Source of the DNA: Fibrobacter sp.
Lineage (GTDB): Bacteria > Fibrobacterota > Fibrobacteria > Fibrobacterales > Fibrobacteraceae
Direction of reading: 5' to 3'
Assembly (NCBI GenBank): GCA_024398845.1
Contig: JAKSIM010000011.1
Span: 1 to 64,000 of the forward strand
Length of the DNA: 64,000 nucleotides
Made by a program: the position numbers and the translations under genes. Numbering within the stretch: the stretch's first letter is position 1; each line of letters begins with the position of its first letter. The notes beneath the pieces were generated by a model, which ran no database searches, was not told the origin of the DNA, and saw only the letters and a program-made list of their open reading frames with translations. Below, piece by piece: positions 13,467 through 26,626 of this stretch.

Positions 13467-16400
13467 ATGAAAAAAATCTTCCTCGTGACGGCAATAGTTT
13501 GCTCCCTCATTGGAACATCTTTTGCTGGATCAGATCCTTGTAAGGACAAAACAACCGAAGCAAAGAAAATGCTTGCCAAGTGCAAGAGCATGGAGAAGGG
13601 CTCCGCAAAGTATAAGGAATGCGCCAACTCCTATAAGGTTATCAAGAACCAGGCCGAACAGGCTTGCCGTTCCGGTGGCCTCGATGAAGAGGGCATGCGT
13701 GGTGCAATCGCCCAGTGGGAAAAGCAGGTGAACAACTGTAAGGGTAAGCAGAACAAGCGTTGCGCTTCTGCCCTCCAGCAGCTGGGTCACTACCAGTTCC
13801 AACTTGAAGAAAAGCTGTTCCTCGATAAGCAGGCGCAGTATGAAGAAGATGTAGCATGGTGCGCTGACCGCGATAACAAGCCGGAAAAGTGCGCTAACAT
13901 TGACCAGTTCCCGAAGGCTGATCACCAGAAGTCTCTCGGTTACTTCCTTGAATACATTGACAAGTACCCGAAGGAAGACAAGACTCCGGTGGTGCTTTAC
14001 CAGGCTGCTGCTGTGCAGGAAGCTAGTGGCGAAGACGACAAGGCCTTCCGCCTCCGTGAACGCCTTGTGAAGAACTTCCCGGATAACGGTCTTGTGCCAA
14101 AGGCATGGCTCCGTATTGCTGAATACCACTTCATGAACCGTAAGTTCCGCGATGCTATTGGCGCCTATAAGAGGGTGACTGGCTTCGAAAACCTCACGGG
14201 TAAGGAAGCTGCTCTTGCCATGTACCACTTGGCTGAATCTTACTACAACATTGCTGAATACGAAACAGCTGCTGTTAAGTACTACGATTACATTATTGGT
14301 GCCGATAAGGGTAAATATCCGAACGACTTGCGCGCAGAAGCTATGGACTTCATGGCTGCCTCCTTCTCTGACTTGGATGGTGGTGGTGTCCAGGAAGCTG
14401 AAGCTTTCTTGAAAGACAAGAAGGTTCCGTTCAAGGATTCCGTTTACTACCGCATTGGTATGAAGAACAAGGACCATGACCGTAACGAAGAAGCCGTCCA
14501 GTCCTTCAAGCGCTTGATGTCCATCAACCCCGATTACATCGACGCTCCGCTTGCCGATATTGCCATGATTGAAATCCTTATCGTCCAGCAGAAGTTCGAA
14601 GACGCTCAGGCTCACCGTTATGTGGTTGTGAAGCGTTATGACCGCAACTCTTCTTGGTTCAAGAAGAACCAGAAGTATCCGGAATCTGTGAAGAACGCAG
14701 AAACGGCTATTCGCGGTGCTATGCTCGACATTCCGCAGTATCACCATGCTCGCGCTGCTAAGCTCACCAAGGAAGGTGACTTGGAAGCCGGTAAGAAGCA
14801 GTATGCAGAAGCTATTAAGGCTTACGAAGCATTCCTGAAGCGTTATGCTAAGGAACCGACCTGGGACGAATACAAGGTCCATATCAACTTGGCCCTCGTG
14901 TACCAGGAAATGGGTCAGCACGCAAACGCTGCCAAGATGTTTAACTGGATCGTTGATACCGATACCACTCGTTACGGCCGTCGCCCGATGGGCTCCGAAG
15001 CTCTCCTGAAGAAGGAAGAAGCTGGCTATAACGCTGTGCTCATGATGGACCAGGCTCGCGAAGATGCCAAGAAGAAGAAGGCTGGTGATGATGCTGTTAA
15101 GGCTTACACCCTCCCGGAAACCAAGGCTTACTTTGCTCAGGTTGACAAGTATATGGCCAAGTTTGGTCAGAATAAGGAAGCTGCAGAACTTGCTTATAAC
15201 GCTGCCATCGTTCATTACGATGCCAAGCAGTATAAGACTGCTGTGACCGTGCTTCGTGAACTTCGTCAGAAGTATCCGAACCACCAGTACATTTTGCTCA
15301 TCAGCCGTATGCTTGCTCAGTCTCTCCTCGAATCTGACCAGCTCGATGAAGCTTTGACCGAATTCGAATGGCTCTACAAGCAGTACCACGATGTGAAGGC
15401 CACGAAGAATGACTCCATGGCTAAGGAAATCGAAAAGGCTATTGCAGCTGTGCTCTTCCAGAAGGCTGAAAAGTCCGTGAAGAACCAACAGTATGAACAA
15501 GGTGCTCAGGCTTACCTCGCCCTCGTGAAGCGTTACCCGCTGGTGAGCTTCTCCGACAAGGCTGTGTTCGAAGCTGGTGTTGCCTACGAAAATGCAAAGA
15601 TGTACGATAAGGCTGCCGAAACGTTCATGATTTTGCCGAAGCAGTATGCATCTTCTTCCCTTACTATTAAGGGTATCTTGCGTGCCGCTAGCGCATACAA
15701 GAAGGGCGGCAAGCCGCAACAGGCCGCTACCACGTTCTTGTTCATTACGAACAACTTCCCGCAGGATTCCATGGCCTTCCAGGCTATTGGTTTCGCTGCC
15801 CAGACTTATGACTCTATCCCGGATAAGAAGAACGCCGCTGTTACCTTCGAACTCGCTTACAAGCGTTATCCGAAGCACGAAAAGACTCCGGCATTCCTCT
15901 ATAGCGCCTGCTTGAGCTACGATGAAGCTAAGATGACCGATGAAGCCATCCGCTGCTCCAAGGATCTCGTTCGCGACTACCCGAAGAGCACTTACGCTCT
16001 CGACGCCGCCTTCAGTATCCCGGTTGCTTATGGCAACGCCAAGAAGTGGGACCTTGCCGCTCAGGAATACCACAACTTCATCAAGATGTATACTGAAGAC
16101 AAGGAAAAGCTGATTGCTGCCTACATTGGTGCCGCTCGTGCTTACATGGAACTTAAGGAAGAAGACAAGGCTGTTGCTGACTACGATGCAACCTTGAAGG
16201 CTTACGATAAGTACGGTCTTCAGATTAAGAATGCTGACCCGGGTGTCCCGGCTGAAGCTGCCTTCTACCTCGGTGAACATGAATATCACAAGATGGAACC
16301 GATTGAAATTAAGGGTAAGGACAAGGAAAAAGCTAAGGTTATCAAGCAGCTGGTTGATATTCTCCAGAAGGCTATGAGCCAGTACTCCAAGTCTGCAACT

Positions 16401-17303
16401 TACGCATCTGAAAAGTGGACCTTCCGTGCCACCAACAAGATGGGTATGCTCTTCGTGACCATGGCTGCTAAGATCCGCGAACAGGAACTTAACGGCAAGA
16501 AGGAAGAAGAAAAGTTTGCTGAACGTATCACTGTTGTCCAGCAGCTCCCGAACTACTACGAACAGGCTCGTCCGATCTTCCAGAAGAACATCGACCTTGC
16601 TCGTGACCAGGGTTTCTACAACCAGGATGTGATCGAAGCTGAAGAAGGTTATATCGAAATGTACTACCAGGGTTGCGCAGTGTTCGTCGAAGTTGCTGAT
16701 GCATTCGCCGCCGCTCCGCTTCCGGACTCCGCCGCTATCGTCAAGGAATACGTGGAATACGAAGGTGCCGTCAAGGAAGACGCTATCGAAATGGCCCACG
16801 AAGACTTGGAAGCCTACCGTGCAGAACTTGCTAGCAAGTCCGACGGTGCTAAGCAGCTCGCTATCCCGCAGTGCGCTACGGGTATCAAGGCCTCTGCTCA
16901 CTACGGTATCGATAACCAGTGGACCGCTAAGTTGTTCGAAACCATGAAGACTTTGGATGAAACTAACGAAGTGAACAACACCAAGATCACTAAGTTTGAC
17001 CCGTCCACCTTGTTCAGCGACCCGTCTTACTTCAAGACCAAGGCTCGTATCGAACAGATCTCCAAGTCCGAAGTCATGACTCCGGAAGAACAGATCAATA
17101 CTTACCGCGACATTATCAAGGAAGCTAAGGCCGATAACGAAAAGTTGAAGGCTGAACTTGCTGACCTGAACAAGCAGATGTCTTCTGTGCCTTCTACTTC
17201 TGTGGGTGGAATGGATGACTCCGCTTCGATGAACGCTGCTCCTGCCGCCGCTCCAGCCCCTGCAAAGAAGGCTCCGGCCAAGAAAAAAGGCAAGAAAAAA
17301 TAG
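13467..17303 (+). CDS. 1278-residue periplasmic TPR scaffold protein
   Basis: The signal peptide is MKKIFLVTAIVCSLIGTSFA. The first 150 mature residues hold several Cys residues (CKDKTTEAKKML, CKSMEKGS, CANSYK, CRSGG, CKGKQNKRC). Then follow many TPR-like helix pairs (about 150-1000), a helical region, and a C-terminal coiled coil (TYRDIIKEAKADNEKLKAEL). The tail is Ala/Pro/Lys-rich (APAPAKKAPAKKKGKKK). It resembles GltE/AglT-type and YbgF-type TPR proteins of Tol- or Glt-like systems in architecture, but is far longer. It is inferred to be a periplasmic scaffold linking motor and outer membrane. A terminator follows, but the TolQ-like gene continues the locus. Confidence 0.8.
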   Translation: MKKIFLVTAIVCSLIGTSFAGSDPCKDKTTEAKKMLAKCKSMEKGSAKYKECANSYKVIKNQAEQACRSGGLDEEGMRGAIAQWEKQVNNCKGKQNKRCASALQQLGHYQFQLEEKLFLDKQAQYEEDVAWCADRDNKPEKCANIDQFPKADHQKSLGYFLEYIDKYPKEDKTPVVLYQAAAVQEASGEDDKAFRLRERLVKNFPDNGLVPKAWLRIAEYHFMNRKFRDAIGAYKRVTGFENLTGKEAALAMYHLAESYYNIAEYETAAVKYYDYIIGADKGKYPNDLRAEAMDFMAASFSDLDGGGVQEAEAFLKDKKVPFKDSVYYRIGMKNKDHDRNEEAVQSFKRLMSINPDYIDAPLADIAMIEILIVQQKFEDAQAHRYVVVKRYDRNSSWFKKNQKYPESVKNAETAIRGAMLDIPQYHHARAAKLTKEGDLEAGKKQYAEAIKAYEAFLKRYAKEPTWDEYKVHINLALVYQEMGQHANAAKMFNWIVDTDTTRYGRRPMGSEALLKKEEAGYNAVLMMDQAREDAKKKKAGDDAVKAYTLPETKAYFAQVDKYMAKFGQNKEAAELAYNAAIVHYDAKQYKTAVTVLRELRQKYPNHQYILLISRMLAQSLLESDQLDEALTEFEWLYKQYHDVKATKNDSMAKEIEKAIAAVLFQKAEKSVKNQQYEQGAQAYLALVKRYPLVSFSDKAVFEAGVAYENAKMYDKAAETFMILPKQYASSSLTIKGILRAASAYKKGGKPQQAATTFLFITNNFPQDSMAFQAIGFAAQTYDSIPDKKNAAVTFELAYKRYPKHEKTPAFLYSACLSYDEAKMTDEAIRCSKDLVRDYPKSTYALDAAFSIPVAYGNAKKWDLAAQEYHNFIKMYTEDKEKLIAAYIGAARAYMELKEEDKAVADYDATLKAYDKYGLQIKNADPGVPAEAAFYLGEHEYHKMEPIEIKGKDKEKAKVIKQLVDILQKAMSQYSKSATYASEKWTFRATNKMGMLFVTMAAKIREQELNGKKEEEKFAERITVVQQLPNYYEQARPIFQKNIDLARDQGFYNQDVIEAEEGYIEMYYQGCAVFVEVADAFAAAPLPDSAAIVKEYVEYEGAVKEDAIEMAHEDLEAYRAELASKSDGAKQLAIPQCATGIKASAHYGIDNQWTAKLFETMKTLDETNEVNNTKITKFDPSTLFSDPSYFKTKARIEQISKSEVMTPEEQINTYRDIIKEAKADNEKLKAELADLNKQMSSVPSTSVGGMDDSASMNAAPAAAPAPAKKAPAKKKGKKK

Positions 17304-17491: not shown

Positions 17492-18112
17492 ATGTCTAAA
17501 ATGCTCGAATCTTTCAGCCCTGAATCCGATGGTTGGCAGTTCATGTGGATCATCTTGGCCGTGTTCATCATTGGCCTTGGTTTCACCATTGAACGTATTG
17601 TCTACATCATGGTTAAAAGCTCCAAGGGTCGCGCCAAGTTCCTCGCTGACTTCGGTAAGCTCATTAGCTCTCAGAACTTTGATCAGGCTCTGAGCCTTGC
17701 CAATGCCACCAACCTCCCGGTTGCTCGCATTATGGCTGCTATCGTCAGCAATCGTGCCGGTGGCCGCGATCAGATGCAGGCTGCTTGCGACGCAGTGTTC
17801 CTCACCGAAGCTCCGCGTCTTACTCGTTACGTTTCCATTATTTCCGTTATGGCTTCCATCTCTACCTTGCTCGGACTTATGGGTACGATTTACGGTCTGA
17901 TCTTTACGTTCGACGCTGTGGCTAACAAACCGGCTTCTGAACGTGCTAAGGCCCTTTCCGATGGTATTGCTATCGCTATGGGTACTACGCTCCTCGGACT
18001 TCTCTCCGCAGTGCCTCTTCTCGTTCTCGTTGGTATCCTCAACATGAACTCTGAACGCCTGATCCAGGAAATGGAAGAAAAGGGCCTCAAGATTATCAAC
18101 TCCCTCTCGTAA
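17492..18112 (+). CDS. MotA/TolQ/ExbB-family proton channel protein
   Basis: A 206-residue inner-membrane protein with three membrane helices: about 15-37 (WQFMWIILAVFIIGLGFTIE), about 110-140 (SIISVMASISTLLGLMGTIYG) and about 160-190 (AIAMGTTLLGLLSAVPLLVL). The conserved TolQ features LLGLMGTIYG and GTTLLGL with the pore-lining Thr residues are present. Five such subunits surround two TolR/ExbD helices and couple proton flow to movement. AAAGGAG precedes the ATG. It is followed by two TolR-like genes and an AgmX/TonB-like gene, the same set as AglR/AglQ/AglS plus an AgmX-type protein in myxobacterial gliding. Confidence 0.92.
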   Translation: MSKMLESFSPESDGWQFMWIILAVFIIGLGFTIERIVYIMVKSSKGRAKFLADFGKLISSQNFDQALSLANATNLPVARIMAAIVSNRAGGRDQMQAACDAVFLTEAPRLTRYVSIISVMASISTLLGLMGTIYGLIFTFDAVANKPASERAKALSDGIAIAMGTTLLGLLSAVPLLVLVGILNMNSERLIQEMEEKGLKIINSLS

Positions 18113-18149: not shown

Positions 18150-19046
18150 ATGGCAAAAGAAATTAAGAAACCTGCGAAGCCAGATGAACCGGACTTGCTC
18201 CCGGCGATGGGCTTGTTCACTATTCTTATTCCTATGCTTTTGTCCATGACGGCTTTCTCTAAGCTTGCTATTGTCGAAGTCAATCTGCCAGAACGTAGTA
18301 TGATGCAGATGGACAACGAAACTCCTCCGGAACCGGACCAGCAAGCATTGAACTTGTCCCTCGCAATCACCAGCGATTATCTCGTGATCGGTGCTCGCGG
18401 TGGTTTCCAGCCGAACGTCTATTTCAAGGAAATGTGGACGTTCCGTTGCAAGTCCGATGCTAAGTTGGTTACTCACGCTCCCGAGGATGTCAAGGCAGCT
18501 GTTGAAAGCGGACACGGACCGAAGTGCAAAGACGGCTCTGAGATGGATAAAGAGAAGTATCTCTATGAAATCGAGAGCATCGAACTCTGGGCAATTCAGA
18601 AGGAATCTGAAGAAGACCCGGGTAAGGTCATTTGGGCCTTGTACTCTAACGGTGGTAGCGCTGAAGAAGCTATTGCCGATAGTGCCTACGTAGATGGCAA
18701 CAACAACTTCCTCGCTTTGCCGGGTGAAGGCGCTATGGGCCTCACTCCTCCGCCAGCTCTCAAGAAGCCGGCCGCAGGTGTCGCTCTCGCTACGCTTACC
18801 CCGAACTCTGCTCGTACGCTCAAACCGGATGTTGCTGCGAAGAACATCATCTATCCGCTCTCTGCTTACGATCTGATTGCGAAGGACCTCATTGCTATCC
18901 ACACGCAGTTTATTGACCTCGAAGACGTTGATAACATTATCATCGTTGCTAACGATGATACTCAATTTGACAAGATCATCCAGCTTATGGACCGTTCCAA
19001 GGAAGCTGGTTTCACCAAGATCAATCTTGCTAAGTTGGGAGGTTAA
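18150..19046 (+). CDS. ExbD/TolR-like protein, long form, lacking the membrane Asp
   Basis: A 298-residue protein, about twice the usual ExbD length. One membrane helix (about 15-40; DLLPAMGLFTILIPMLLSM) is followed by a periplasmic region with an insertion (about 70-215) carrying two Cys and a Pro-rich stretch. The C-terminal ExbD-type fold ends AGFTKINLAKLGG. In TolR, ExbD and MotB the helix carries an Asp that binds the proton; here the equivalent stretch reads MGLFTILIPM with no acidic residue. The neighbouring second copy keeps the Asp. A heterodimer of one active and one inactive plug helix is the likely arrangement. It ends three bases before the second copy. Confidence 0.85.
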   Translation: MAKEIKKPAKPDEPDLLPAMGLFTILIPMLLSMTAFSKLAIVEVNLPERSMMQMDNETPPEPDQQALNLSLAITSDYLVIGARGGFQPNVYFKEMWTFRCKSDAKLVTHAPEDVKAAVESGHGPKCKDGSEMDKEKYLYEIESIELWAIQKESEEDPGKVIWALYSNGGSAEEAIADSAYVDGNNNFLALPGEGAMGLTPPPALKKPAAGVALATLTPNSARTLKPDVAAKNIIYPLSAYDLIAKDLIAIHTQFIDLEDVDNIIIVANDDTQFDKIIQLMDRSKEAGFTKINLAKLGG

Positions 19047-19048
19047 TC

Positions 19049-19543
19049 ATGGCTAGAAGAACTCGTAAATATAGCGAAGACGTACCTTTCTCCCTCACGT
19101 CCATGATGGACATGATGACCATCATTCTGGTGTTCATGATTAAGAACTTGGACGCAGAAGGTCAGCTCTTGACTCAGGCCGAAAACTTGATTCTTCCGAT
19201 TTCTACATCGAAGATCCAGCCGAAGACCGTGTCCCTGACTGTGGTGGTTGATGCGAACTACATTATCGCCGATAATGAAAAGGTGGTGCCGACTGCTGAC
19301 GTTCTCGCTCAGGAAGACCTGCTTGTGACCAAGCTGGACGAAATCCTGAAGGACCGTCGTGCAATCGAACAGGAACATGCTCTTAAGATGGGCCTTCCTG
19401 CCGATGAAGCTGGCAACATCATTGTTCAGATCGACAAGAATATCCCATACGATGCGATGTATAAGGTGATGGCTACTTGTGGCTTCTCCGGTTACACGAA
19501 TATCGCATTCGCCGTGATGGAAAAGAACGGCGGGGAGGAATAA
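19049..19543 (+). CDS. ExbD/TolR-like protein with intact proton-binding Asp
   Basis: A 164-residue, normal-length biopolymer-transport protein. The single helix (about 13-33) reads LTSMMDMMTIILVFMIK and contains the conserved Asp that TolR, ExbD and MotB use to carry protons past TolQ/ExbB/MotA. The periplasmic domain has the usual beta-alpha pattern (SLTVVVDANYIIADNEK ... VQIDKNIPYDAMYKVMATCGFSGYTNIAFAV). It is expected to pair with the preceding long copy inside a TolQ pentamer. Tight spacing on both sides (two bases each) shows co-transcription and probably coupled translation. Confidence 0.93.
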   Translation: MARRTRKYSEDVPFSLTSMMDMMTIILVFMIKNLDAEGQLLTQAENLILPISTSKIQPKTVSLTVVVDANYIIADNEKVVPTADVLAQEDLLVTKLDEILKDRRAIEQEHALKMGLPADEAGNIIVQIDKNIPYDAMYKVMATCGFSGYTNIAFAVMEKNGGEE

Positions 19544-19545
19544 TA

Positions 19546-20481
19546 ATGGCTAAGAAAAAAGAACAGATAGATCCGTTAGTAGCGTCGCTGATGCCGGAAT
19601 CCGACAAGAAGATGGGCGCTATCGTCGGTATCTCCTTGGTTATAGCTCTTGCTATTTCTCTGTGGGCTTCCATGTACGAAGCTGTGGTTGACGAAGTTAT
19701 CTTCGAAGAATCTGCAGCTGAAGACCTCTCCGCTTCTATGATGATGGAAGAGAAGAAGGAAGAGAAAAAGGAAGAAAAGAAGAAAGAAGAACCCAAGAAG
19801 CCTCGTAAGAAGGCCGGTGGCGGTGGTAAGCCGCGTGGTAAGGGTCAGCCGAACGCTCCGCAGACTCGTGGCGTGCTCAAGCTCCTTACTGCTCAGACCA
19901 AGAACGCCAGTGCTGCTGCTTACGACCTCATGAAGAACCAGAAGTTCACTAAGGACATCGATAAGGTTCTTAAGGATGTGGCTGGCCTCCAGACTACGGG
20001 TAAGACCGTTCTCGGTGGTCGTCGCGGTAAGGCTGATGGTGGCTTTAACGAAGGTTACGCTGAAGGCGGTTCCGGTGGTATCGGTGACGGTCTGGCTGGC
20101 CTCCTTGGCGGTGGTGGCGGTGGTATCGCTACTAAGGCTAAGGGCTCCATCAAGACCCCGTCTGAACGTGATATCGACATGGGCGCTGGTGGTGGTTCCC
20201 GTTCTGCTGCAGACATCATGAAGGTTGTCCGTCAGCGTACTCCGGGTCTCCGTCACATCTATAACAAGTTCCTGAAGAAGAAACCGGGATTCCAGGGTAA
20301 GGTTACCTTGAAGTTCACGATTGCTCCGGGTGGCGAAATTATCAGCATTTCCATTGCGTCCTCCACTACCGGTTACGGCGAATTTGATGGCGAAATCAAG
20401 ACCGCTGTGAGCCGCTGGAAGTTCAGCAAGGTTAAGTCTGGTAACACGACGGTGACCATTCCGTTCACGTTCTCCGAATAA
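19546..20481 (+). CDS. AgmX/PglI C-terminal-domain, TonB-like energy transducer
   Basis: A 311-residue protein. A cytoplasmic N-terminus precedes one membrane helix (about 25-47; MGAIVGISLVIALAISLWA). Next comes a Glu/Lys-rich stretch (KKEEKKEEKKKEEPKKPRKK), then a Gly-rich region with GGGGGG and RRGKADGG. The C-terminal domain (about 225-311) contains VRQRTPGLRHIYNKFLKKKP, GKVTLKFTIAPGGEI and a closing TVTIPFTF, the pattern of the AgmX/PglI C-terminal, TonB-like domain. It would carry force from the TolQ/TolR motor across the periplasm. GGGGAGG lies before the ATG at 19546. A terminator closes the operon at about 20540. Confidence 0.87.
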   Translation: MAKKKEQIDPLVASLMPESDKKMGAIVGISLVIALAISLWASMYEAVVDEVIFEESAAEDLSASMMMEEKKEEKKEEKKKEEPKKPRKKAGGGGKPRGKGQPNAPQTRGVLKLLTAQTKNASAAAYDLMKNQKFTKDIDKVLKDVAGLQTTGKTVLGGRRGKADGGFNEGYAEGGSGGIGDGLAGLLGGGGGGIATKAKGSIKTPSERDIDMGAGGGSRSAADIMKVVRQRTPGLRHIYNKFLKKKPGFQGKVTLKFTIAPGGEIISISIASSTTGYGEFDGEIKTAVSRWKFSKVKSGNTTVTIPFTFSE

Positions 20482-20609: not shown

Positions 20610-21896
20610 ATGAAATTAAGATCTGCCGCTGCTGTGGGTGTTGCCTTCGGTATCCTCGGTGTAGGTTCCGCGTTTGCAACTTTCGCTCGCATTGAATCTA
20701 TGGGCAAGAATACGACTTACATCATGGACGATGTGAGTATTTTTGATAACCCGGCTAACATCAACCTTTACCCGAACTACTTGATTGGTGAATTCGGCCC
20801 TTATACCGAACATGTTGCCACCGGTGAAAACATGGATCCGCAACATCCGAATTTCGGTGGTATTTTTAGCCTTTCCATGGGTGACGAAAATAATCCGGAT
20901 CCGCGCATTTCCATTGGTGGTATGTTCGGTCGTTTCTCTGAACTCGCTATGTACCTTCCGGACGTTGTTATCGGTGAAGGCGGCAAGTTGAATGTGACCC
21001 CGGAAACCGTGACGAACTTTGATGGTTTCTTGGGCGGAACGCTCACTAATGGTGATGCTTGGGGCTTGCATGTTTACATTGCACACCAGGATGGTGGTTA
21101 CAAGACTGGTAGCGGTACCTATCAGGTTGATTCCGACGCATTCGCCTCCATTGTACAGGCTGATGGTGGTTTGAACCTCCAGTTCGGTAGCAACATCGAC
21201 TTTGAATTCAGCTTCGGTATTGCCCGTATCCAGTATGGTCAGGAACACGAAAACTTCTTTGACGATGGAGACTTCTCCTTCCTCGCCAAGTCCCGTGCGT
21301 TCTTCACTCTCGACGCTCTCGATGGTGAACTCGTTCCGGCTTTCTCCATGAAGTTGATTCAGGCTCCGGGTATTGAAGACAACCGTGCTATGGTTGGCCT
21401 CGGCATCAATGTGGCTTTGGACCGTGGCTTCTTCTGGTTGGGCGGTGACTTTATTTGGAACAAGACCAGAGCTCATGACTGGACTTATGATTATGATACA
21501 GGCAAGTCCACTTACAATGACAACAACCTCAATGACCCGAACTGGGATGAACGCAAGGATATTGGCGGCATGATCAGTTTTGGTATTGAACGTAACATTT
21601 GGTGGGACTGGTTCGTTATCCGCGTGGGTGGCCAGAAGTCCATTCTCTATACGCAATGCGACCAGAACGAAAAGAATACCGGCAAGAACGGCATTTGCAA
21701 GGAAGATGGTAACTTCTTCTCTACGAATCCGGTTGCTGACGGCACCAACAAGGACCATGTGGGCTTTGGCTTTGGCATCAACATCGAAGAAAAGTTGAAA
21801 ATTGACGTGACTGTTGCCGAAGACATGCTGTTCCGTAACCCATTCCAGGGTGAAGGCCGCCTCTTCTCTAGAATCTCCGCTACTTACAGCTTCTAG
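20610..21896 (+). CDS. Outer-membrane beta-barrel protein of unknown function
   Basis: A 428-residue protein. The signal peptide (MKLRSAAAVGVAFGILGVGSAFA) is followed by FARIESMGKNTTYIMDDVSI and then amphipathic beta strands rich in Gly and aromatics to the C-terminal residue (ISATYSF, ending in Phe as barrel proteins often do). A run of Asp/Asn-rich loops suggests surface exposure. The start has an AGGAGTC ribosome site. It lies after the terminator of the motor operon with its own AT-rich leader, so it may be a separate unit, but its position suggests it belongs to the same apparatus. No specific family is recognised. Confidence 0.7.
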   Translation: MKLRSAAAVGVAFGILGVGSAFATFARIESMGKNTTYIMDDVSIFDNPANINLYPNYLIGEFGPYTEHVATGENMDPQHPNFGGIFSLSMGDENNPDPRISIGGMFGRFSELAMYLPDVVIGEGGKLNVTPETVTNFDGFLGGTLTNGDAWGLHVYIAHQDGGYKTGSGTYQVDSDAFASIVQADGGLNLQFGSNIDFEFSFGIARIQYGQEHENFFDDGDFSFLAKSRAFFTLDALDGELVPAFSMKLIQAPGIEDNRAMVGLGINVALDRGFFWLGGDFIWNKTRAHDWTYDYDTGKSTYNDNNLNDPNWDERKDIGGMISFGIERNIWWDWFVIRVGGQKSILYTQCDQNEKNTGKNGICKEDGNFFSTNPVADGTNKDHVGFGFGINIEEKLKIDVTVAEDMLFRNPFQGEGRLFSRISATYSF

Positions 21897-22428: not shown

Positions 22429-23451
22429 TTGTTCGGTCTTTTCTCTTGCGATATTGGTATTGATCTCGGTACGGCAAACACTTTGGTCCACGTTGCCGGC
22501 CAGGGAATCGTGATTAATGAACCTACGGTGATTGCTGTGGACAGCAAGAACAACCGTGTTTCCGCCATCGGCTTTGAAGCAAAGAAAATGCTTGGCCGTA
22601 CCCCTGGTGAAGTTCGCGCCGTGCGTCCGATGCGCGATGGCGTGATTGCTGATTTTGAATTGGTTGAAACTTTGCTGCAGACGTTTATTAAGCGCGTGCA
22701 GAAATACCCGCTGTGGATGGTGAAACCTCGCGTGGTGGTCGGTGTGCCGAGTGGTATTACCGAAGTGGAAAAGCGTGCCGTGATTGATGCCGCCCGCCAG
22801 GCTGGTGCCAAGGAAGTTCACTTGGTTCACGAACCGATGGCCGCTGCCGTTGGTATGGGAATTCCGGTTGAAGATCCGGTGGGTAACATGATTGTGGATA
22901 TTGGCGGTGGTACGTCTGATATAGCCGTTATCGCTTTGAATGGCACGGTTTGTAACGCCTCTGTACGCGTTGGCGGTGATGAAATGGACGATGCCATTGT
23001 TCGCTACTTGCGCACGATGTACAACCTCCAGGTTGGCGAAAGCACTGCGGAACAAATCAAGATTCAGATTGGATCTGCTAGCCCGCTTGAAGAAGAATTG
23101 ACGATGGAAGTGAAGGGCCACGACTTTATTGCCGGTATGCCCCGCACCATGACCATCAAGAGTGAAGAAATTCGTGAAGCTTTGAATGAACCTGTGACTG
23201 CGATTGTCGAAGCTGTGAAGCAGGCCTTGAGCATGACTCCGGCAGAACTTTCTGCTGATATTTATGATAAGGGCATTATTATGACGGGCGGTAGCTCGCA
23301 GTTGCGCGGTTTTGACGAACGTATCCGCAAGGAGACGGGTCTTTCTGTGAATGTCATTGATGATGCTCTGGTTTGCGTTTGCAAGGGCGCCGCTCGCATT
23401 CTCGAAGATCTCGACAAGTATCGTCCTGTTTTGATTGCTTCTTCTAACTAG
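22429..23451 (+). CDS. mreB: Rod-shape determining protein MreB
   Basis: A 340-residue bacterial actin. The phosphate-binding loops IGIDLGTANTLVHV and MIVDIGGGTSDIAVI are intact, as is the adenosine motif GIIMTGGSSQL. MreB filaments under the inner membrane guide the elongation machinery. It starts with TTG (22429), preceded by AAAAAAAGGG; no in-frame ATG fits the family N-terminus. It leads mreC-mreD-mrdA-rodA, which follow with short gaps or overlaps. TATATT at 22384-22389 may be its -10 hexamer. Confidence 0.96.
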   Translation: MFGLFSCDIGIDLGTANTLVHVAGQGIVINEPTVIAVDSKNNRVSAIGFEAKKMLGRTPGEVRAVRPMRDGVIADFELVETLLQTFIKRVQKYPLWMVKPRVVVGVPSGITEVEKRAVIDAARQAGAKEVHLVHEPMAAAVGMGIPVEDPVGNMIVDIGGGTSDIAVIALNGTVCNASVRVGGDEMDDAIVRYLRTMYNLQVGESTAEQIKIQIGSASPLEEELTMEVKGHDFIAGMPRTMTIKSEEIREALNEPVTAIVEAVKQALSMTPAELSADIYDKGIIMTGGSSQLRGFDERIRKETGLSVNVIDDALVCVCKGAARILEDLDKYRPVLIASSN

Positions 23452-23474
23452 AACACTCTTTATATCACGGTTCG

Positions 23475-24302
23475 ATGCTTAGGGCTTTCCGCTTTATTAT
23501 CGACTTGTTCACACAAAGGCACGGCATTGTTGCCTTTGTGTTTTTCCTGTTGCTTGGCTTTACCATGCGGCAGTCTCCTGAGGCGGTGAAAAAGAACATA
23601 GTCGCTTCTATTCTAGATACGGTCTTTTACCCGGCTCAGATGCTGTTGTCTTCTGTAGATGCGTATCGTTCGGTTGCCGCCGAAAACGAGCAGCTGAAAG
23701 AGGAAAACGCAAGGCTTCGTCAAGAGACGTATTATGCCAGCGAAGGCTTGCAGGAACTCGCCCGACTGCACACCTTGGTGCGGTTCGATGACAAGTGGGA
23801 TTTCCCTATTGTGACCGCTCGCGTTGTTGGGCATAATCCAGGAAGATTCCTGACAACGTTGGTCATAAATCGTGGAACGCATCATGGCGTTAAAGAGAAT
23901 ATGCCTGTGTTTTCGATGAATGGCCTTGTTGGAAAAATCACGAAGGCTGCATATTCTCATTCCAGAGTGCAACTTTTGACGGATCCGAATCTTAAGTTGT
24001 CTGTGATTGAACGTAAGTCTCGTGTGGTGGGCTTCTTGGAATCTGTGGATGGGCGTTTACTTACGGCCATGATTCCGTCTCATGCAGGTGTCAAGGTGGG
24101 GGATACGCTCATTACCTCTGGCTTGGGTGGAATTTTCCCAAAGGGAATCCCGGTGGGTACCGTGAAGTCGGTTCGTTTGGCTGATTTAGATGTAATGCGT
24201 TTGATGGACGTGGATCCGTTCCAGGAATTCTACACGCTTGAGGAAGTGTTCGTGATGGAAAAGGATCCCGAATGGATTATTCAGGAGTTGTTGGATGAAT
24301 AA
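23475..24302 (+). CDS. mreC: Rod-shape determining protein MreC
   Basis: A 275-residue protein with one N-terminal membrane helix (about 18-38; HGIVAFVFFLLLGFTMR). A coiled coil follows (about 58-95; AAENEQLKEENARLRQE), then the paired periplasmic beta-barrels (VTARVVGHNPGRFLTTLVINRG ... GLGGIFPKGIPVGTV). MreC links the MreB cytoskeleton to PBP2/RodA in the periplasm. It overlaps mreD by eight bases. Confidence 0.95.
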   Translation: MLRAFRFIIDLFTQRHGIVAFVFFLLLGFTMRQSPEAVKKNIVASILDTVFYPAQMLLSSVDAYRSVAAENEQLKEENARLRQETYYASEGLQELARLHTLVRFDDKWDFPIVTARVVGHNPGRFLTTLVINRGTHHGVKENMPVFSMNGLVGKITKAAYSHSRVQLLTDPNLKLSVIERKSRVVGFLESVDGRLLTAMIPSHAGVKVGDTLITSGLGGIFPKGIPVGTVKSVRLADLDVMRLMDVDPFQEFYTLEEVFVMEKDPEWIIQELLDE

Positions 24303-24786
24303 TCTTAGATGGCTAAAAGTCTTTTTTGCTTATTTGCTTTGCTTTGCCCTGCAGCTGACCGTTGCAAAGTGGCTCCAGATTTTTGAAGTTGGGCCGGACT
24401 TTGTGATTATTTTGACGGTGACTATCGCCATTAAGTTCGGGCCTGCAGCTGGATGTTTCTGGGGCTTTTTGGCAGGTTTTTCTCAAGATGTTTACGCACC
24501 AATTGAATGGTTCGGCGCACATACGATTGCCATGACGGTTTTGGGATTTCTTGTGGGTCAGCTTGAAGAAAGATTCTTAACGCTCAACTTGCCGACAAAG
24601 GTTGTTGTGCTGGCTATTGGCTTCTTCTTGTGCGATATGATTTATTTCTTGTTGACCGGTCTTCAAAAAGATGTGGTCACGAATCTCTTTTTCTCAAAGA
24701 CGATTCCGGAGTGCATTTATACGGTAATTGTGGGCGCTGTGGTATTCTATTTGTCTAGCGGGAAGAAAAAGAGCCGTCATGTTTAA
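24295..24786 (+). CDS. mreD: Rod-shape determining protein MreD
   Basis: A 163-residue, strongly hydrophobic protein with about five membrane helices, including LKVFFAYLLCFALQLTVAKW and GCFWGFLAGFSQDVY (a conserved MreD segment). It is a small membrane partner of MreC in the elongasome. Position and size fit; sequence conservation of this family is low. It overlaps mreC by eight bases at its start and mrdA by eight bases at its end. Confidence 0.9.
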   Translation: MNNLRWLKVFFAYLLCFALQLTVAKWLQIFEVGPDFVIILTVTIAIKFGPAAGCFWGFLAGFSQDVYAPIEWFGAHTIAMTVLGFLVGQLEERFLTLNLPTKVVVLAIGFFLCDMIYFLLTGLQKDVVTNLFFSKTIPECIYTVIVGAVVFYLSSGKKKSRHV

Positions 24787-26626
24787 AGCTACCGATAGCA
24801 ATTATATCCAGAATAGAAACTGGAGCGTACTGGTGTTTATGTGCGCCGTACTTTTGCTATTTGCCGTGCTTTTGCTGCGCTTGTTCTCTTTGCAGTATAC
24901 CCATTACGACGAAAACCTGCAACGATCCGAAAACAACCGCATTCGTAAGGTGGAACTTATTGCTGAACGCGGCTACATTTATGACCGTAATGGAATTGTG
25001 CTGGTTCGCAACAGGCCTTCGTATCAAATCGCTTTGCAGGCAATGAACCTGCCTCGCAAAAAAGCGGATCGCGATTCCGTATTTCGCCGTTTGCTCCGGA
25101 TTAAAGACAAGGATGGAACGCCTCTCTTTGATTCCGCTGCGGTAGATACCGCGTTCCAGCGCAGTAATTGGATTAAAAACCGTCCAATTCGTTTTTTGGA
25201 AGATGCCTCGCAAGAACAGGTGGCCATTATCGAAGAACGCTCTTCGGAGCTCCCTGGTGTTATTACGGTCATTGAATCGCGTCGTGAATACCCTTACGGG
25301 ACGCTCGCTTCGCATGTGCTTGGCTACACGAGCGAAATTTCGGAAGAGCAGTTGAAACTGCCTGAATATCAGAATTATTCCCAAGGTGATCGCGTTGGCC
25401 AAAAGGGCCTGGAACAAGGTTATGACCAGGAGTTCCGTGGCACGAATGGTATAAAGCTTGTCGAAGTGAATGCCTCTGGCCGTGAGCTGGGATTGGTGAA
25501 GGGTGTGGAGAGCCAAGCTCCTGTTCCCGGGCTCCATTTGGTTTCGACCATAGATTTGAAATTGCAAAAGGTGGCCGAGGCGGCTATTCCTGATAGTGCA
25601 AAGGGAGCGCTTGTGGCGATTGACCCGCGCAATGGGGAAATCCTTGCAATGGTGAGCTCTCCGCGCTTGGATCCGAACATATTCTCGCTCAAGCGTCGTG
25701 AACGTAACAAAGGCTGGGCTCAGGTGGCTTTGGATTCTATGAGACCGCTTACGAATCGAGCTATTTCGGGAACGTACACTCCGGCTTCGGTCTTTAAACT
25801 TGTCACTGCTGGTGCGGGACTTGAAAATGGGGTGCTCTCGGAGACAAAGTATTATTCCAAGCCTTGTACGGGTGGTTACCAGTATGGCGCTCGCTATCAA
25901 AAGTGCTGGGGCACTCATGGAAATTTGAACGTGGTACACGCCATTCGTTTGAGTTGTGATGTTTTCTTTTACCAAGCGGGTCTCGACATTGATATGGCTC
26001 GCATCAATGAGTTTGGCCGCCGTTTTGGCTTGGGCGAGAATCCGCTTGGTGTGGATATTCCTGGCGAAAAGGGGGGCTGGCTCCCGGATTCCGCTTCGTT
26101 TAATGCCAAGAACAAACGTTTGGGTTGGCGTTGGGCCCGAGGTTTGATTTTGAATCTTTCTATTGGGCAGGGCCAGTTGGTGACGCCCTTGCAGCAGGCG
26201 GTTCTAGTGGGGTCATTGGCGACGGGTAAGGGTGTTTATCGCCCGCATTTTATGAAGGAGCTTCGCGACTTTAACGGCAATGTGGTTAAACGCTTTGAAC
26301 CTGAAATTATTCGACCGGGGAACATGAAACCAGAAACGCACCGCGTTCTGATGGCGGCTATGGACTCCGTGGTGAACCATCCTGGTGGAACAGGTAAGCG
26401 CGGGGCGGTTCCTGGAATTCGCGTGGGTGCTAAAACTGGTTCCGGCGAATGGAAAAAAGGTGAAAAGACTCATGCTTGGTATGCTGCCGTAGCTCCGCTT
26501 GAAAATCCGGAAATCGCCGTGGCTGTGATTATGGAAGCTGCTGGTGGCGGTGGCGCTGTTTCTGGACCGATTGCCCGCAAGGTTCTTATGGCCTATTTTG
26601 GCAAGGAAGATGAGGTGAAAAAATGA
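24779..26626 (+). CDS. mrdA: Penicillin-binding protein 2 (elongation transpeptidase)
   Basis: A 615-residue class B PBP. An N-terminal membrane helix (about 15-38) is followed by a dimerisation/pedestal region (IAERGYIYDRNGIVLVRN) and the transpeptidase domain. The catalytic SxxK is SVFK (about 337) within GTYTPASVFKLV. The second motif, LSCDVFFYQAG, has Asp where many PBPs have Asn, as usual in PBP2. The third is KTGSGEW (about 551). It cross-links peptidoglycan during cell elongation together with RodA. The ATG at 24779 overlaps the mreD stop; its own stop overlaps rodA (ATGA). Confidence 0.95.
   Translation: MFKATDSNYIQNRNWSVLVFMCAVLLLFAVLLLRLFSLQYTHYDENLQRSENNRIRKVELIAERGYIYDRNGIVLVRNRPSYQIALQAMNLPRKKADRDSVFRRLLRIKDKDGTPLFDSAAVDTAFQRSNWIKNRPIRFLEDASQEQVAIIEERSSELPGVITVIESRREYPYGTLASHVLGYTSEISEEQLKLPEYQNYSQGDRVGQKGLEQGYDQEFRGTNGIKLVEVNASGRELGLVKGVESQAPVPGLHLVSTIDLKLQKVAEAAIPDSAKGALVAIDPRNGEILAMVSSPRLDPNIFSLKRRERNKGWAQVALDSMRPLTNRAISGTYTPASVFKLVTAGAGLENGVLSETKYYSKPCTGGYQYGARYQKCWGTHGNLNVVHAIRLSCDVFFYQAGLDIDMARINEFGRRFGLGENPLGVDIPGEKGGWLPDSASFNAKNKRLGWRWARGLILNLSIGQGQLVTPLQQAVLVGSLATGKGVYRPHFMKELRDFNGNVVKRFEPEIIRPGNMKPETHRVLMAAMDSVVNHPGGTGKRGAVPGIRVGAKTGSGEWKKGEKTHAWYAAVAPLENPEIAVAVIMEAAGGGGAVSGPIARKVLMAYFGKEDEVKK

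Follow-up and report, generated by a model that had tools for sequence, protein, structure and literature searches.

Paired TolR-type proteins with a single proton-binding aspartate: a candidate heterodimeric TolQ-TolR motor in Fibrobacterota

How the two ion-binding aspartates of a 5:2 motor divide the work between them is an open question, one current model being that they alternate every 36 degrees. A gene cluster in the stretch of Fibrobacter sp. DNA analyzed here (the first 64,000 nucleotides of contig JAKSIM010000011.1, hereafter the window) raises this question, as it encodes one TolQ-like pore subunit together with two unequal TolR-like proteins, of which one has the aspartate and the other does not. 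The cluster, which lies with all its features on the + strand, opens with a gene for a 1278-aa periplasmic protein with TPR repeats (13467..17303; Pfam TPR families). This is followed by the TolQ/ExbB-type pore subunit of 206 aa (17492..18112; Pfam MotA_ExbB, 76 bits); TolR1, a long, Asp-less ExbD/TolR paralogue of 298 aa (18150..19046; DLLPAMGLFTILIPMLLSM); TolR2, an Asp-bearing ExbD/TolR paralogue of 164 aa that begins 2 nt downstream (19049..19543; LTSMMDMMTIILVFMI); a 311-aa transducer with a TonB_C domain of the AgmX/PglI (GltG/GltJ) type (19546..20481; Pfam TonB_C, 33.3 bits); and, last in the cluster, a conserved partner gene of 428 codons, probably for an outer-membrane protein (OMP), whose product matched no family in the Pfam search (20610..21896). 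The order TPR-TolQ-TolR1-TolR2-TonB(GltG-like)-OMP recurs in the Fibrobacterota families seen, with the TPR gene upstream of tolQ kept across the phylum; in the gene-order comparison, the OMP gene was not detected in some Fibrobacterota loci, e.g., the Fibrimonas-type ones. The TonB-type protein scores 79.5 bits against the AgmX/PglI C-terminal domain model (NCBIfam NF033768, cut-off 40), 35.6 bits against the GltJ model (cut-off 450), and 59.8 bits against the GltG model (cut-off 650), so far under the last threshold that it is not GltG itself.

TolR1 and TolR2 score 33.1 and 53.8 bits, respectively, against the Pfam ExbD model (PF02472), above its cut-off of 25.4. The proton-binding Asp that this family carries in its pore helix is present in TolR2 as codon 21 (GAC, 19109..19111), whereas TolR1 has Gly at the corresponding place (codon 21, GGC, 18210..18212). 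When a profile built from TolR1 relatives is aligned to the ExbD structures 7ajq and 6tyi, the pore helix and its N-x-x-P lead-in match without gaps, and an Asn/Gly column falls opposite the ExbD Asp. In the single-chain AlphaFold2 model of TolR1 (mean pLDDT 79.6), the membrane helix spans residues 17-35 (18198..18254) and contains no acidic or basic residue; a charge check of the window protein found no D or E from residue 15 to residue 43. The initial annotation had remarked on this inequality, and it holds across the phylum: TolR2 has Asp in 93/93 Fibrobacterota sequences, as against Asp or Glu in 0/102 for TolR1, where the denominator counts distinct TolR1 proteins in which this position is occupied (Gly 55, Asn 28, Ser 12, Cys 4, Ala 3). 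Three further ExbDs were identified in the genome of the window, and all have the Asp. The two observations that would have undone the idea, a substitute acidic residue on the same helix face and long-copy orthologues retaining the Asp, were both sought. The window protein has no such substitute, and the Glu of Chitinispirillales-type TolR1 lies 14 residues further on, about 21 A toward the periplasm and thus off the Asp level; the Asp is retained in remote relatives such as those of the Myxococcus AglQ type.

The Asp-less state is not peculiar to this phylum. We assembled 126 non-redundant cassettes in which TolR1 adjoins TolR2, comprising loci from other phyla and Fibrobacterota representatives. 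TolR1 has the Asp in 63 of these and lacks it in 62, with one row having no letter at the site; TolR2 has it in all 126. The Asp-less form occurs in 39 family-level groups, 9 in Fibrobacterota and about 30 outside. Two further features accompany it. One is a proline seven residues after the site, which in the window protein is codon 28 (18231..18233): it is found in 59/62 Asp-less but 0/63 Asp-bearing TolR1 proteins and thus marks the Asp-less class. The other is in TolQ. Alignment to 8odt and 5sv0 equates Thr132 and Thr166 of the window protein with T145/T178 of TolQ and T148/T181 of ExbB, and puts Ile161 in the position that Glu176 has in ExbB. Equivalents of both ring threonines are invariant (88/88), yet Glu at the Glu176 place is seen in 0/59 Asp-less versus 51/61 Asp-bearing cassettes. 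Exceptions and variants include Asp-less TolR1 proteins without the proline (L050, L051, and L053 of Fibrobacterota family f4, and L247), a TolR1 whose Asp site is occupied by Thr (L334), and one Asp-bearing clade (L265, L267, L302, and L308) whose TolQ has Lys at the Glu176 place. Searches of plasmid and viral collections returned no relatives.

To gauge the strength of these associations, trees were built from TolQ and TolR2, omitting TolR1 and, in part of the runs, the discriminating TolQ columns. The TolR1 Asp state changes 5-6 times on these trees, against about 25-36 times with shuffled labels. The independent contrasts for the proline run nearly all in the same direction and none in the opposite one, but their number is too small to reach significance (best p 0.125); independent-pairs tests for the Glu176 place and the proline were likewise not significant (p 0.125 or higher), and an outgroup-rooted tree offers only 2 independent contrasts on well-supported branches. 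Because of this small number of independent changes, the association falls short of statistical proof. Outgroup ExbBs have Glu at the Glu176 place in 5 of 6 cases; the backbone of the rooted tree lacks resolution and has several long branches, such that loss of the Asp cannot be told from its regain. TolQ Thr165, which at first seemed a perfect mark of the Asp-less class, was dropped because outgroup ExbBs mostly have Thr there too.

These sequence comparisons lead us to favor, as probable, a motor in which the dimeric axle inside a TolQ pentamer is composed of one TolR1 and one TolR2 and has one proton-binding Asp; both the heterodimer and its proton stoichiometry are what we infer rather than observe. 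Such a proton-driven motor of the ExbBD/TolQR/AglRQS type would have the two helices adjacent in a single TolQ pore, with that of TolR2 alone binding protons and the retained ring threonines of TolQ, as judged from the alignments, serving its Asp. TolR1 would act as a passive strut kinked at its proline. In the cryo-EM structures of TolQRA, ExbBD, and MotAB, the two axle Asps differ in state, with one close to the ring threonines and the other distant from them (PMC12965293). The rotary model predicts that each ion drives a step of 36 degrees (PMC9389320). Were TolR1 and TolR2 to occupy one pore, with TolR2 alone able to bind a proton, each proton should instead drive a step of 72 degrees, which amounts to about five protons per turn. 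The mixed dimer with a single proton path put forward in the initial annotation is the best explanation of the gene pairing, the expression, and the correlated pore residues, and stands as a proposal. One consideration against it is that MotB proteins mutated at the Asp can act as dominant negatives, which argues that a dimer with one Asp would not necessarily rotate unless compensated. Whether the Asp-less cassettes as a whole amount to a widespread and ancient 5:2 class, having an obligate heterodimeric axle, a single ion-binding site, five protons per turn at one per 72-degree step, loss of the Glu176 equivalent, and a proline-kinked passive helix, with two-Asp motors such as AglRQS as its sister form, is a more speculative matter, to which we give rather less than even credence.

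A different arrangement of the same proteins would be two separate homodimers sharing TolQ, with TolR2 conducting and the TolR1 complex serving as a nonconducting decoy, brake, or wall anchor. A review leaves it open whether AglQ and AglS form homo- or heterodimers (PMC9389320), and tolQ-tolR1 lies at a distance from tolR2 in some genomes. In the latter (L396, L399, and L400), the Asp-less TolR1 gene stands apart from a TolR2 gene present elsewhere in the genome, so that an invariable adjacency of the two is ruled out and the operon does not by itself dictate the stoichiometry. Against this arrangement, almost all cassettes have one tolQ with both tolR genes adjoining it, and the TolQ pore residue tracks the state of TolR1 while TolR2 never varies, which suggests that TolR1 itself faces the pore. 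We regard separate homodimers as unlikely. In two other loci (L380 and L382), TolR1-like genes are unlinked to both tolQ and TolR2; both have Asp at the site.

No better placed is the notion that TolR1 does enter the heterodimer but has its ion path rescued, through a water wire at the proline kink, an Asn or Ser, or some other polar group, leaving two paths in the motor. The frequency of Asn at the site speaks for it, as does the near fixation of the proline where the Asp is missing, since a proline there could open up backbone carbonyls. However, many members have Gly, Ala, or Cys with no polar substitute, and the helix is free of acidic and basic residues. Moreover, the proton-binding site of AglQ is essential for gliding (PMC9120999), and the AglQ D28N channel mutant serves as a loss-of-function allele (PMC3858216). 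A rescued path is, on this evidence, as improbable as separate homodimers.

Slightly less credible again is a TolR1 helix docked outside the TolQ pore in the manner of TonB or TolA, around an axle that is a TolR2 homodimer. TonB and TolA helices do bind a site on the motor, through a motif of their own (PMC12204202), and the periplasmic domain of TolR1 is unusual. The gapless alignment of the TolR1 helix and its N-x-x-P lead-in to the ExbD pore helix argues for a place within the pore instead, and the cluster already has a TonB-type transducer of its own.

That TolR1, for want of the proton-carrying residue, might be a paralogue in decay, or one that the cell can spare, without a part in the motor, is hardly credible, and we reject it, given that purifying selection, published expression, phylum-wide conservation, and the recurrence of the Asp-less state in 39 family-level groups all stand against it. 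TolR1 was found in 151 of 168 Fibrobacterota genomes, and the pN/pS of its membrane helix within the genus (0.05) is about as low as that of TolR2 (0.04), indicating strong purifying selection rather than relaxation. In F. succinogenes S85, membrane proteomics identified the products of FSU_2400-2403, with each of the four 1.2-1.7 fold more abundant on cellulose; the authors of these studies regard the cluster as a system for Ton-type uptake (PMC6851124, PMC4619616). We call FSU_2401 (32.44 kDa, pI 4.72) and FSU_2402 (18.24 kDa, pI 4.69) orthologues of TolR1 (32.48, 4.69) and TolR2 (18.23, 4.70), respectively, on the basis of matching published mass and pI, as distinct from a sequence comparison. 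Under the heterodimeric motor that we favor, this rise on cellulose suggests that Fibrobacter probably uses the force for cellulose-associated work at its surface; motility of F. succinogenes had not been demonstrated as of 2011 (PMC3079729).

The second peculiarity of TolR1 is its length. The initial annotation attributed its 298 residues to a periplasmic insertion of about 145 residues, and the AlphaFold2 model agrees, giving a beta-rich insert of about 150 aa (about residues 86-236; 18405..18857) that separates strand 2 from helix 1 in the ExbD fold, with pLDDT of about 83-93. A PDB fold search with the TolR1 model, insert included, gave no match at E<=0.001; MreB/Hsp70-like folds listed for it had TM-scores near 0.2 and were taken as noise. 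TolR1 proteins of other phyla do not have the long insert, the exception being one in genome G266 (L401, at least 284 aa) that is apparently a near relative. Judged by sequence comparison, the insert is thus nearly confined to Fibrobacterota and their near relatives, whereas the loss of the Asp is not. As TolR1 proteins of other phyla without the insert also lack the Asp, the insert cannot have caused the loss, and its narrow distribution makes it unnecessary for asymmetry. Taken together, the interpretation in the initial annotation is supported in part, with the insert and the missing Asp being two distinct questions. The insert may still provide one side of the axle with a periplasmic contact of its own, plausibly to the TPR protein or the GltG-like transducer, through which an outer-membrane partner would be pulled. 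Paralogues of the TolR1 periplasmic domain occur as exported or lipoprotein-like proteins without its membrane helix at L093 (1808-3208, -), L094 (2131-2904, +), and L095 (1-1194, -). In those of L093 and L095, the domain is fused to the linker and C-terminal domain of the TonB partner, and this naturally occurring fusion hints at joint action of the two.

Among known systems, AglRQS of Myxococcus xanthus with GltG/GltJ (AgmX/PglI) is the closest relative, sharing the tolQ-tolR-tolR order, two different TolR-type proteins encoded together with one TolQ, and a TonB_C/AgmX-type transducer. AglRQS/Glt homologues were listed in one member of the Fibrobacteres by Luciano et al. (PMC3169522). The two systems differ in that the review cited above attributes the Asp to AglQ as well as AglS (PMC9389320), for which a hand-over-hand action has been suggested (PMC9120999), whereas the TolR1 of the window has no Asp and bears the insert. 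PDB sequence searches yielded no AglRQS structure. The L208 pair (162 and 194 aa) is likely the AglQ/AglS counterpart, going by the sizes in PMC3169522; TolR1 of this type has the Asp and no proline at +7, and its partner TolQ has Glu at the Glu176 place. The 5:2 motors ExbBD (Ton) and TolQR (Tol-Pal) share with the cluster the ExbD/TolR fold, the pore-helix Asp (here in TolR2 only), and the two ring threonines of TolQ, but their axle is a homodimer with two Asps. The window proteins also fall well short of the models for those families, with 21.7 (TolR1) and 19.6 bits (TolR2) against Tol-Pal TolR (TIGR02801, cut-off 127.3) and 19.9 bits (TolR2) against Ton ExbD (TIGR02803, cut-off 152.95). 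GldLM of Bacteroidota has a 5:2 architecture in a gliding system (PMC9389320). In PVC bacteria, heterologous tolR pairs behind a TPR and a tolQ gene have been noted and modeled; these TPR-tolQ-tolR-tolR-vWA clusters have a vWA transducer, unlike the TonB type of the window, and the available portion of that source makes no mention of a missing Asp (PMC12204202). The locus is a variant of the AglRQS/ExbBD kind of motor, distinguished by its Asp-less partner. No description of such a partner appeared in the open-licence papers and passages covered, and an earlier mention elsewhere is possible.

Motors with one Asp permanently missing appear to operate in many unrelated bacteria, so that natural one-site and two-site relatives can be compared; evolution may have supplied just the mutant needed to test the mechanism of the rotary motor. 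The consequences for proton stoichiometry and force are a clear, testable prediction. The finding also bears on whether paired TolR proteins such as AglQ/AglS can be functionally unequal. The presence or absence of the Asp, of Pro at +7, and of Glu in TolQ also furnishes a sequence rule for sorting unnamed ExbD pairs.

Finally, directly 3' of the motor cluster lie mreB-mreC-mreD-pbp2, the last a penicillin-binding protein gene (window positions 22429-26626). A downstream mreB is conserved among most Fibrobacteraceae and within families f2 and f4, but not among Chitinispirillales-type genomes; the AglRQS motors of Myxococcus have been linked to MreB (PMC9389320, PMC9120999). The window's own genome also has two tandem, unlike TolQ-like genes beside one Asp-bearing ExbD (L001 and L002, on contigs C35 and C45 of G000).
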